DNA of 64,000 nucleotides from Lysobacteraceae bacterium (GTDB taxonomy: Bacteria; Pseudomonadota; Gammaproteobacteria; Xanthomonadales; Rhodanobacteraceae), in contig JAJFUF010000007.1 of the NCBI GenBank assembly GCA_021372495.1, positions 1 through 64,000 of the forward strand, given 5' to 3'. A model generated the notes under the pieces. The model was given only the letters and a program-made list of their open reading frames with translations, ran no database searches and had not been told where the DNA came from. Positions 15,533-37,163 of this stretch are shown here, piece by piece (positions within the stretch are counted from its first letter, which is position 1; every line of letters begins with the position of its first letter). A program made the translations under genes and the position numbers.

Positions 15533-18500
15533 ATGCCCGAGCTGATCACGCCACCGCTGCCGACCGATCCGAAACAGCGCCGCTACTGGGCCGCGCCGCA
15601 CGGCTCCGCGCTGGCGCTGGCGGTGGCCGGGGCGGCGCGCCGGCACGCGGGTCCGGTGGTGTTCGTCGCACGCGACACCCAGCGCGCACGCACGCTCGAG
15701 GACGAACTGGCGGTGTTCGCCGGCGCCGAGCTGCCGGTGCTGCACTTCCCGGACTGGGAAACCCTGCCCTACGACCTGTTCAGCCCACACCCCGAGATCG
15801 TCTCGCAGCGCATCGCCACGCTGTACCGGCTGCCGTCGGTGCGCCGCGGCATGCTGGTGGTGCCGGTCGCCACGCTGCTGCAGCGCCTCGCGCCGCGCAG
15901 CTTCATCGCCGGCTCCGGGCTGGCGCTGCGGCGCGGGCAGAAACTCGACCTCGCCGGCGAACAGCGCCGCCTCGAATCCAGCGGCTATCGCCACGTGCCG
16001 CAGGTCGCCGAACCCGGCGACTTCGCCGTGCGCGGCGCGCTGATCGACATCTTCCCGATGGGCGCGGCGGAGCCGTATCGCATCGAGCTGTTCGACGACG
16101 AGATCGACTCGATCCGCACCTTCGACGCCGAGACGCAGCGCTCGCAGCAGCAGGTCGAGGCGGTCGAGCTGCTGCCGGCGCGCGAGTTCCCGCTCACCGA
16201 CGAGGCGGCCAAGGGCTTCCGCAACCGCCTGCGCGAGCGCTTCCTGATCGACATCCGCCGCTGTCCGCTCTACCAGGACATGAAGGAGGGCGTGACCCCC
16301 GGCGGCATCGAGTACTACCTGCCGCTGTTCTTCGAGCGCACCGAGACGCTGTTCGACTACCTCGGCGACGACGCGCTGTTCGTGCTGGGCGAGGGCGCGC
16401 TGGACGCGGCCGAGCGTTTCCGCGCGCAGGCGCAGGAGCGCTACGAGCAGCGCGCGCACGACATCGAACGGCCGATCCTGCCGGTCGACGAGCTGTACCT
16501 GCCGGTGGAGAAGCTGCGCGAGGCGCTGAACAAGCCGCTGCGCGTCGACATCGTCGGCGCCGATCACGCGCACGCGGTCGCGCTCGGCACGCAGCCCGCG
16601 CCGGAGCTGCCGATCAACCGCAAGGGCGAGGCGCCGGCCGAAGGACTGAAGCGCTTCCTCGACGCCTATCCCGGGCGCGTGCTGGTCGCCGCCGAAACCG
16701 CCGGCCGCCGCGAGGCGCTGCTGGAGCAGCTCGCCGTCGCGGACCTGCGTCCGGTCGTTGCGGAAAGCTGGAGCGGCTTCGCCGCTCCCCCCTCACCCCA
16801 GCCCTCTCCCCGCCGGGGAGAGGGAGACAAGATGGCGACCACGGGTTCGACCCTCGCTCCCCCGCCGGAGAAGACGGGCACGGGAGTCGCCGCGGATGCA
16901 ATCCCCTATCCCCGCTTGGGAGAGGGGCAGGGCGAGCGGGCGAGCGCCGCGGGCGCGCCGCGCTTCGCCATCACCGTCGCGCCGCTGGAGCAGGGCTTCG
17001 CGCTGGCCGCGCCGGCGCTGACGGTGCTGACCGAGCGCGAGCTGTTCGGCGAGCGAGTGCGCCAGGAACGCCGCCGCCGCCGCACTGCCGCGCGCGATCC
17101 GGAAGCGGTGATCCGCGACCTCACCGAGCTGGCGCTGGGCGCGCCGATCGTGCACGTCGACCACGGCGTCGGCCGCTACCAGGGCCTGGTCGCGCTGGAC
17201 GTCGGCGGCATGCCCGGCGAGTTCCTCGCCATCGAATACGCCAAGGGCGCCAAGCTGTACGTGCCGGTCGCGCAGTTGGCGCTGGTCAGCCGCTACACCG
17301 GCACCGCGCCGGAGCTGGCGCCGCTGCACGCGCTGGGCGGCGACGCCTGGGAACGCGCCAAGCGCAAGGCCGCGGAAAAGGTGCGCGACGTCGCCGCCGA
17401 GCTGCTGGCGATCTACGCGCAGCGCGAGGCGCGCGCGGGCACCGCGCTGGCCGTCGACCGCACGCTGTACGAGCAGTTCGCCGCGACCTTCCCGTTCGAG
17501 GAGACGCCCGACCAGCTCACCGCCATCGAGGCGGTGATCGCCGACCTCGCCGCGCCGCGGCCGATGGACCGCGTGGTCTGCGGCGACGTCGGCTTCGGCA
17601 AGACCGAGGTGGCGGTGCGCGCGGCATTCGTCGCCGCCAGCGCCGGCAAGCAGGTCGCCGTGCTGGTGCCGACCACCCTGCTCGCCCAGCAGCACTACGA
17701 CAACTTCCGCGACCGCTACGCCGACTGGCCGATCCGCGTCGAGGTGATCTCGCGCTTCAAGTCGAAAAAGGAAATCGAGGCCGCGCTGGCCAGGCTCGCC
17801 GACGGCCGGATCGACGTGATGATCGGCACGCACCGGCTGCTGCAGGCGGACGTGAAGTTCAAGGACCTCGGCCTGGTGATCGTCGACGAGGAGCAGCGCT
17901 TTGGCGTGCGCCAGAAGGAGCAGTTGAAGAAGCTGCGCGCCGAGGTCGACCTGCTGACGCTGACCGCGACGCCGATCCCGCGCACGCTGAACATGGCGAT
18001 GGCGGGCATGCGCGACCTGTCGATCATCGCCACGCCGCCGGCGCATCGCCTGGCGGTGAAGACCTTCATCGCCCAGCACGACCCCGCGCTGATCCGCGAG
18101 GCGTTCCAGCGCGAGCTGGCGCGCGGTGGCCAGGTGTACTTCCTGCACAACGAGGTCGACACCATCGAGAAGACCGCGCGCGAGCTGCAGGCGCTGATCC
18201 CCGACGCGCGCATCCGCATCGCGCACGGGCAGATGCCCGAGCGCGAGCTGGAACAGGTGATGCTCGACTTCCACCGCCAGCGCTTCAACGTGCTGGTGTG
18301 CACCACCATCATCGAGTCGGGCATCGACATCCCGACCGCCAACACCATCGTGATCAACCGCGCCGACCGCTTCGGCCTGGCGCAGTTGCACCAGTTGCGC
18401 GGCCGCGTCGGCCGCTCGCACCATCGCGCCTACGCCTATCTCGTCGTGCCCGACCGCCGCGCGATGACCGCCGACGCCGGCAAGCGCCTGGAGGCGCTGG

Positions 18501-19147
18501 CCTCGCTGGAGGAACTGGGCGCCGGCTTCACCCTGGCCACCCACGACCTCGAGATCCGCGGCGCCGGCGAACTGCTCGGCGAGGAGCAGTCCGGGCAGAT
18601 CCAGGAAGTCGGCTTCTCGCTGTACACCGAACTGCTGGAGCGCGCGGTGCGCGCGTTGAAGAGCGGCAAGGTGCCGGATTTCGATCTCAGCAGCGAGCAC
18701 GAAACCGAAGTCGAGCTGCACCTGCCGGCGCTGATCCCCGACGATTATCTCCCCGACGTGCACGCGCGCCTGACGCTGTACAAGCGCATCGCCAGCGCGC
18801 CCGACGCCGAGGCGCTGCGCGAGCTGCAGGTGGAGATGATCGACCGCTTCGGCCTGCTGCCGGATGCGGTCAAGCACCTGTTCGCGATCACCGAGCTGAA
18901 GCTGCGCGCCACCCCGCTCGGCATCCGCAAGCTCGACTTCGGACCCGCCGGCGGCCGCGTGACCTTCCGCGAGAAGCCGAACGTCGACCCGTTGTCGGTG
19001 ATCCGCCTGATCCAGCAGCAGCCGCGCACCTACAGGCTGGATGGCCAGGACAAGCTGAAGGTCGCCATGGAGCTGCCCGGCGCCGCCGAACGCCTGCGCG
19101 CCGCGCAGCAACTGCTCGACACGCTGGGCCTGCGCAAGGCCGCCTGA
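15533..19147 (+). CDS. mfd: Transcription-repair coupling factor Mfd
   Basis: 1204 residues. Mfd removes RNA polymerase stalled at DNA damage and recruits UvrA. Order: UvrB-homology module (about 1-340), D3 (about 360-490), RNA polymerase-interacting domain (VHVDHGVGRYQG onward), then the translocase with Walker A GDVGFGKT (684-691) and motif II DEEQ (Asp785), and the C-terminal TRCF domain. The protein is longer than E. coli Mfd (1148) mainly because residues about 417-470 (SPQPSPRRGEG to PRLGEGQGE) are encoded by a palindromic repeat element lying in frame in D3. The rest is intact, so it is probably functional. Confidence 0.97.
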   Translation: MPELITPPLPTDPKQRRYWAAPHGSALALAVAGAARRHAGPVVFVARDTQRARTLEDELAVFAGAELPVLHFPDWETLPYDLFSPHPEIVSQRIATLYRLPSVRRGMLVVPVATLLQRLAPRSFIAGSGLALRRGQKLDLAGEQRRLESSGYRHVPQVAEPGDFAVRGALIDIFPMGAAEPYRIELFDDEIDSIRTFDAETQRSQQQVEAVELLPAREFPLTDEAAKGFRNRLRERFLIDIRRCPLYQDMKEGVTPGGIEYYLPLFFERTETLFDYLGDDALFVLGEGALDAAERFRAQAQERYEQRAHDIERPILPVDELYLPVEKLREALNKPLRVDIVGADHAHAVALGTQPAPELPINRKGEAPAEGLKRFLDAYPGRVLVAAETAGRREALLEQLAVADLRPVVAESWSGFAAPPSPQPSPRRGEGDKMATTGSTLAPPPEKTGTGVAADAIPYPRLGEGQGERASAAGAPRFAITVAPLEQGFALAAPALTVLTERELFGERVRQERRRRRTAARDPEAVIRDLTELALGAPIVHVDHGVGRYQGLVALDVGGMPGEFLAIEYAKGAKLYVPVAQLALVSRYTGTAPELAPLHALGGDAWERAKRKAAEKVRDVAAELLAIYAQREARAGTALAVDRTLYEQFAATFPFEETPDQLTAIEAVIADLAAPRPMDRVVCGDVGFGKTEVAVRAAFVAASAGKQVAVLVPTTLLAQQHYDNFRDRYADWPIRVEVISRFKSKKEIEAALARLADGRIDVMIGTHRLLQADVKFKDLGLVIVDEEQRFGVRQKEQLKKLRAEVDLLTLTATPIPRTLNMAMAGMRDLSIIATPPAHRLAVKTFIAQHDPALIREAFQRELARGGQVYFLHNEVDTIEKTARELQALIPDARIRIAHGQMPERELEQVMLDFHRQRFNVLVCTTIIESGIDIPTANTIVINRADRFGLAQLHQLRGRVGRSHHRAYAYLVVPDRRAMTADAGKRLEALASLEELGAGFTLATHDLEIRGAGELLGEEQSGQIQEVGFSLYTELLERAVRALKSGKVPDFDLSSEHETEVELHLPALIPDDYLPDVHARLTLYKRIASAPDAEALRELQVEMIDRFGLLPDAVKHLFAITELKLRATPLGIRKLDFGPAGGRVTFREKPNVDPLSVIRLIQQQPRTYRLDGQDKLKVAMELPGAAERLRAAQQLLDTLGLRKAA
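16787..16945. repeat. REP-type palindromic element inside mfd
   Basis: Two facing palindromes lie about 80 bp apart: CCCTCTCCCC-gcc-GGGGAGAGGG (16802-16824) and an imperfect CCCCTATCCCCG...TTGGGAGAGGGG (about 16902-16926), with the typical CCCCTCACCCCAG lead-in at the left. The sequence is translated without a stop as part of Mfd. A related palindrome lies at 26202-26235 and a weaker one near 62581-62611. The number of copies elsewhere in the genome cannot be seen here. Confidence 0.8.
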
Positions 19148-32455: not shown

Positions 32456-32590
32456 CGTCATGCCCGCGAAAGCGGGCACCTATCGAAAACAGCGGCGGGG
32501 ATGACGCACGGCTCCTGCGGCGTGCCCTTCGCGCCGCCCGCGGCGTCGCCGCGGCTGCCTGCCTCGCGGTCCCGCTTTCGCGGGAATGAT
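32456..32590. repeat. Pair of REP-type palindromes (CCCGCGAAAGCGGG family)
   Basis: CGTCATGCCCGCGAAAGCGGG (32456-32476, then CACC) and, about 90 bp on, an inverted partner reading CCCGCTTTCGCGGGAATGAT (32571-32590). They lie between the convergent azurin and acyl-CoA ligase genes. A second pair of the same family is at 37095-37163. Confidence 0.85.
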
Positions 32591-32608
32591 GGCTTGCCCG
32601 CGGGCTCC

Positions 32609-37094: not shown

Positions 37095-37163
37095 CGTCAT
37101 TCCCGCGAAAGCGGGAACCCATCCCGATGTTGGCAATGGATGCCCGCTTTCGCGGGCATGACG
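37095..37163. repeat. Inverted pair of REP elements between two GNAT genes
   Basis: CGTCATTCCCGCGAAAGCGG (from 37095) faces ATGCCCGCTTTCGCGGGCAT (37140-37159, then GACG). The right end abuts the stop codon of the gene ending at 37164. It is the same family as the pair at 32456-32590. Confidence 0.88.

Follow-up and report, generated by a model that had tools for sequence, protein, structure and literature searches.

The gene for the transcription-repair coupling factor Mfd in the window, by which we mean the whole 64,000-nucleotide stretch of DNA that was analysed, carries within its reading frame an inverted dimer of palindromic units of a type that we call CCCTC. Our results are consistent, at a probability of about 0.78, with a model in which this dimer is a likely non-autonomous mobile element lodged in the loop of Mfd domain 3 (D3), where it is tolerated as a linker that turns over and is not a domain. 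For the 55 codons that it adds, the prediction is a disordered loop at the surface, and Mfd would presumably still work. On our best reading, protein tolerance filters short stop-free repeat dimers, and within Mfd they get through mainly at the D3 loop.

The presence of in-frame REPs in repair genes has been a puzzle since 2013, the question being whether they are targeted, useful or tolerated. In Mfd, one loop has been occupied and altered by unrelated repeat types in many sister species and natural empty-site controls exist, so these three answers can be separated by experiment or comparison. The same loop shows mobile palindromes writing new protein sequence, and it carries a warning for gene models: long Mfd loops are mostly repeats rather than domains.

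The inserted block in mfd

The features of the gene and of the block within it are given below.

15533..19147, plus strand: mfd, transcription-repair coupling factor; uninterrupted ORF of 1204 aa with Pfam Mfd domains and a match to the NCBIfam equivalog NF007966 above cut-off
16655..16786, plus strand: N-terminal piece of the Pfam MFD_D3 match, residues 375-418, cut by the insert
16770..16788, plus strand: perfect 8-bp hairpin GGAGCGGC-TTC-GCCGCTCC, which adjoins the first unit and has its left arm within the mfd W-S-G codons
16781-16963, plus strand: loop holding the insert, residues 417-477
16784..16948, plus strand: inserted block, 165 bp or 55 codons net, the sole gap relative to a same-genus Mfd; its exact ends are inferred, with a possible error of a few nt
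16788..16824, plus strand: first CCCTC unit, CCCCTCACCCC plus the perfect hairpin CCCTCTCCCCG.CGGGGAGAGGG at 16802-16824
16825..16903, plus strand: spacer of 79 bp between the inverted units; it starts AGACAAG, as do several other genomic copies
16904..16940, minus strand: second CCCTC unit, in opposite orientation and diverged

The original prediction described a palindrome pair in frame within mfd with no stop, and the ORF is indeed open right across both palindromes. The palindrome at 16802-16824 is perfect, with 11-bp arms, and the other lies at 16904-16926. The first unit matches the genome-wide pattern with 0 mismatches (16790-16810) and the second with 2 (16918-16938); as arms, 16788-16824 and 16904-16940 are inverted and 76% complementary, with 79 bp between them. 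A search of the window with the hairpin pattern at up to 3 mismatches returned the two mfd places only, compared with a mean of 0.00 in 100 shuffles. The Pfam MFD_D3 match to this Mfd comes in two stretches, broken by the block. As RNA, the insert folds with a z score of -1.86 (4 of 200 shuffles were equally good), and an Rfam search of it returned 0 families. Elsewhere in the window, at 32456-32591 and 37095-37163, lie two more inverted pairs, made of CGTC-type repeats (CGTCATTCCCGCGAAAGCGGG and the like).

The empty site is provided by Mizugakiibacter sediminis, a member of the same genus, whose Mfd of 1149 residues aligns end to end with a single 55-residue gap at the insert. From the conserved Phe 416 to the strand FAITVA, the loop has 61 residues here and 6 in M. 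sediminis. Mfd of E. coli has 1148 aa in the PDB, and the alignment to it runs to residue 409 and resumes at 425, so that the size comparison made from the sequence (1148 vs 1204 residues) was right. An extra stretch of about 50 residues (417-470) had been proposed; the insert is present, and its net size is 55 residues within a loop that extends to residue 477. That the stretch is an insertion is supported by the empty site in a same-genus relative and by further copies in the genome. The suggestion of recent mobility holds as far as the absence of the block from M. sediminis goes, and the two mfd units have diverged from each other. Mfd had also been called an essential-pathway protein, but it is not generally known to be essential.

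An AlphaFold2 model of residues 217-552, made with 73 relatives, had a mean pLDDT of 84.4 and a pTM of 0.68. In ten-residue blocks, pLDDT was 92-97 over most of the segment that precedes the loop and 80, 57, 46, 43, 42 and 65 along the insert, within which no secondary structure was predicted. The loop is thus predicted to be floppy, which is the likely reason that the protein would tolerate palindromes there. The nearest solved chains are those of E. coli Mfd, RNAP-bound states included, and a passage in PMC9177983 describes domain 3 as structural, serving to set the orientation of the UvrB-homology module.

Copies of the repeat in the source genome and in other genes

The CCCTC unit has 42 matches in the source genome at up to 2 mismatches, 17 of them exact. 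With a stricter pattern at up to 1 mismatch, 28 copies are found and the reversed control gives 0; the reversed control for the looser pattern gives 23 matches, an unfair comparison because that pattern resembles its own reverse. The 42 matches fall into 37 loci, and gene context was tested for the 37 leading copies, the 5 other matches being covered with their loci and not singly. No coding-like frame surrounds 23 of the 37, and 14 lie in one. In 10 of these 14 the repeat is 20-109 codons from the 5' end of the frame, and in nine of those ten the first Pfam domain begins after the repeat (the tenth, L013, has no Pfam match); we therefore read the ten as lying before the true gene start. The remaining four copies are inside three genes: mfd, metG and lpd. 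The metG copy is in the linker of methionyl-tRNA synthetase ahead of the tRNA-binding domain, and lpd, for dihydrolipoamide dehydrogenase, has two units, a pair in the linker that follows the lipoyl domain (L027). All three genes hold the repeat at a flexible-looking link. A genome search for other copies had been proposed as a check on insertion, and it found them, nearly all outside conserved coding sequence.

We found no transposase for the CCCTC type. The source genome has two Y1_Tnp loci. One is RAYT-like (L423, G000:C17:20300-22700, 1025-1360) and lies within a GTAG-tagged inverted repeat, GTAGGGCGGGAGTATCCCGCC, which is unrelated to the CCCTC element. The second is near a contig edge, which limits the test; the one trace of CCCTC beside it is a 10-bp core with one mismatch, 386 bp downstream.

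Other proteins of the family hold the repeat as well. CCCTC-type cores are present in the Lpd linker of 16 of 30 relatives (L386-L415): 10 of the 15 whose genera have Mfd inserts, and 6 of the 15 that belong to g13, g17, g19 and g21. In one of the genomes (G030) the anchors extended into the E2 gene next door, and the Lpd part was judged by eye. These cores led us to reject the targeting of repair genes as a general rule. The Lpd peptides are similar in layout across genera, and the insertion there may therefore be one old event, perhaps domesticated. The MetG linker looks flexible too, yet in 30 relatives it showed no clear repeat, two one-mismatch core matches (G030 and G120) being taken as chance; this weighs against our main reading. 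In a g22 genome (G224), PEP carboxylase (L488 216-2999, minus strand) contains an in-frame CCCTC-type peptide, and its Pfam PEPcase match comes in two stretches.

Variation and proposed turnover of the Mfd loop among relatives

We surveyed 233 Rhodanobacteraceae genomes, of which 225 had an Mfd match; with partial and split genes excluded, the loop could be read in 217. It has at most 12 residues in 148 genomes, more than 12 in 69 and more than 20 in 48. A repeat core, by a lax test that allows one mismatch to short cores, is present in 51 of the 69 loops longer than 12 residues and in 44 of the 48 longer than 20. An in-frame repeat at this place had been judged unusual; at 51 of 217 genomes, it is not rare in the family. 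Read as DNA, many of the inserts are inverted dimers of three types: CCCTC, of which CTCCCCCTGC is a variant; REPs tagged CGTC, made of CGTCATCCCGGCGAAAGCCGG and its mirror; and REPs tagged GTAG, made of GTAGGAGCGGCTTCAGCCGCGA and the mirror of that. With one label for each genome, and with some of the shorter inserts being weak matches, the counts are 20 for CCCTC, 9 for the CTCCCCCTGC variant, 16 for CGTC and 6 for GTAG, spread over 11 genera. Long loops range from 13 to 153 residues, and the longest, in G224, consists of three tandem dimers. In the rest of the Mfd genes examined, up to 1200 nt before and up to 2100 nt after the loop, 36 single-core matches occur in 697,878 bases; we read only one cluster among them as a repeat, that of G097 in another loop about 90 residues upstream. 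In a set of named genomes picked by similarity, whose counts are therefore not rates and some of whose Rhodanobacteraceae overlap the survey, the loop exceeds 12 residues in 7 of 9 Rhodanobacteraceae, in 8 of 35 Lysobacteraceae, 6 of which have a core, and in 0 of 12 Pseudomonadaceae.

A second site of variable length was seen in Mfd near residue 266, between EYYLPLFF and TLFDYL, where 15 genomes (e.g., L426 and L430) have 10-19 extra residues. Several of these extras carry a short palindrome, such as CCGCACATGGATGTGCGG; a pattern for it matched once in each of 7 of the 20 genomes searched, and on that count we do not class it as a repeat. One genome coded as g22 (G229) has an A+T-richer Mfd loop region (L254), a long branch and an odd 34-residue loop, and is perhaps misplaced or mixed.

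On a FastTree phylogeny of Mfd built with the loop left out, the long-loop label requires 34 changes, of which well-supported branches force at least 25. By type, the fewest changes are 18 for CCCTC, 8 for the CTCCCCCTGC variant, 15 for CGTC and 5 for GTAG, counts that pool gains and losses. Close relatives may differ in repeat type or be empty, as seen for G003, G028 and G118 within one genus and for G190 compared with G192.

Among 44 repeat-bearing inserts, a stop interrupts the frame that is used in 0 and the other two frames in 18 and 26 of the inserts, as a frame filter would give. Five pairs of genomes that share an insert gave a pooled pN/pS of 0.60 for the inserts (0.36-0.99 by pair) compared with 0.09 for the flanks; two further pairs stand outside the pool, G169/G171, whose loops lack a repeat core (ratio 0.10), and G220/G187 (1 silent change). 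The pS values are alike, 0.22 for inserts and 0.27 for flanks, and the inserts therefore date from roughly the time at which the pairs diverged. Judged by these substitution ratios, shared inserts appear to drift in frame under weak protein constraint.

The supply of repeats does not by itself account for the pattern. In genomes of g13, g17, g19 and g21 the median is 118 copies (CCCTC and CGTC patterns together) and long Mfd loops occur in 0 of 43, whereas those of g18 and g22 have a median of 21 copies and long loops in 32 of 54 (Fisher 1.9e-11, uncorrected for shared ancestry). Copy number as the sole cause was rejected on this comparison. Within g18 and g22, genomes with a CCCTC-type mfd have a median of 21 CCCTC copies compared with 4 in those without (p 0.02), and the corresponding trend for CGTC is not significant (p 0.18). 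The arrangement of the copies may also matter. Among the matches listed (100 places per genome), opposite-strand CCCTC neighbours are a median of 544 bp apart in the g13 genome G110 (L438-L460), with 16 of 22 pairs at 404-710 bp, and a median of 136.5 bp apart in the g22 genome G224 (16 pairs). Five of the G110 composites, examined by eye, contained nested CGTC-type repeats, some also GTAG-type, and no obvious transposase ORF. None of the 29 G110 copies tested has a frame with coding character on both of its flanks. The same test flags 4 of 28 copies in the source genome and 1 of 28 in G224, the PEP carboxylase copy; it misses four listed G224 mfd copies, whose neighbours are repeats too. This comparison, with one genome per side, suggests that a longer mobile unit unable to stay in frame would fit the genera in which mfd is empty.

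Together, these observations fit a scheme in which the repeats would have moved into mfd, the short loop in most relatives pointing to that direction. Their entry into genes would be roughly random, and selection would remove those that break the fold or the frame. A short dimer that is stop-free in the right frame might then survive in few places, such as the Mfd loop, the Lpd and MetG linkers and the PEP carboxylase site. Once inside, its peptide would drift under weak constraint and later be lost or replaced by another repeat.

Competing explanations and known palindromic repeats

An alternative that we consider unlikely is that a hairpin or a specific site directs insertion, so that the element picks the mfd spot at the DNA level and protein tolerance does not decide its place. 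A hairpin with a stem of at least 6 bp lies directly 5' of the CCCTC unit in 21 of 30 source-genome copies (L001-L030), compared with 1 of 30 control windows. Its stems differ from copy to copy, and those in mfd and metG take in codons of the gene. Such a hairpin might mark a target or be left over from fold-back synthesis, and it may belong to the element, about ten copies having one stem in common. In 9 of the 15 cases located, which come from genera g3, g7, g18 and g24, the CGTC core follows the Phe codon at a constant distance of 6 nt; this could reflect a target preference, or an old insertion with many losses, instead of many gains. However, three unrelated types occupy the loop at differing offsets: a lax search places the CCCTC cores at about 0-34 nt, and the GTAG cores lie at 18-24.

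It is also conceivable, and in our view quite improbable, that the D3 loop is a standing docking bay which unrelated palindromes occupy in turn, and that, in clades accepting them, a fast-changing, REP-written linker would retune the opening of Mfd on stalled RNAP. Were this so, mobile repeats would be a source of variation in transcription-coupled repair. Direct selection for inserts that would alter Mfd activation and so tune transcription-coupled repair or the mutation rate seems very unlikely. Occupation of the loop is clade-specific in a way that copy number does not explain, the pN/pS of 0.60 is under 1, and PMC3733652 reports REPs in several repair genes; yet the sequence, length (13-153 residues) and repeat type of the inserts differ between sister species, and these repeats are also present in Lpd, MetG and PEP carboxylase, none of which is a repair protein. 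Finally, we give almost no credence to a local expansion of a low-complexity loop or an assembly error in place of a repeat insertion, which might be entertained for the 18 of 69 loops longer than 12 residues that lack a repeat core: the block includes, without mismatch, a unit of which the genome has 17 exact copies, on which ground low-complexity expansion was rejected, the protein is found on 2 contigs of a protein collection, and relatives have recognisable full dimers.

The closest precedent is the description of intragenic REPs by Di Nocera et al. (2013; PMC3733652). That paper reports short palindromic repeats in frame within genes, often as dimers and many of them in replication and repair genes, including uvrA, uvrB, recB and dnaE2; in recB of X. 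campestris and X. oryzae the REP lies at about the same position, and the authors speculate about REPs in repair genes and mutators. The insert in mfd is alike in being palindromic, in frame and dimeric. The word mfd is absent from the main text of that paper, and, in contrast to the REPs reported there, here three unrelated types fill one loop over 11 genera of one family. Among the titles and abstract openings of the papers listed, our literature search found no report of such an Mfd insert or of one Mfd loop refilled by unrelated types, and a search with the DNA motif gave no relevant title among the matches listed.

The original prediction called the element REP-type. Its form agrees with REPs, which are palindromic units of 20-40 bp or dimers of them: it is an inverted pair with 37-bp arms and a 23-bp palindrome. 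So does its abundance, REPs occurring in tens to thousands of mostly intergenic copies, with 42 matches and 23 of 37 tested copies in no coding-like frame. The two REP super-families are marked by a GTAG or a CGTC tag at one end of the unit, and neither tetranucleotide occurs in 16784-16948; since the tag is missing, "REP-type" stands as a resemblance rather than as membership. Inverted palindromic pairs are likewise the repeated entity in REPINs and BIMEs, as outlined in parts of PMC2817692 and PMC8049555. A REPIN mobilised by a RAYT has a RAYT gene flanked by its own repeat, and in the source genome no such gene was seen for the CCCTC type.

The RPEs of Rickettsia (Ogata et al. 2000, 2002), as summarised in passages of PMC10969869 and PMC3733652, are palindromes of about 150 bp that lie in frame in unrelated genes and are translated. 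The mfd insert resembles them as a palindromic element in frame within a gene, here predicted to be translated. Rickettsia belong to another class, however, and RPEs, in what those passages say, are scattered across many genes, whereas here one loop is reused by unrelated repeats. An NCBIfam scan of the window's Mfd (E <= 0.1) had 0 RPE models in the best 25 of 37 families. What the block shares with in-frame palindromic inserts as a group is a place inside a conserved gene, an open frame and an empty site in relatives. In-frame REPs in repair genes are already known; the repeated filling of one Mfd loop by unrelated types is the new part.
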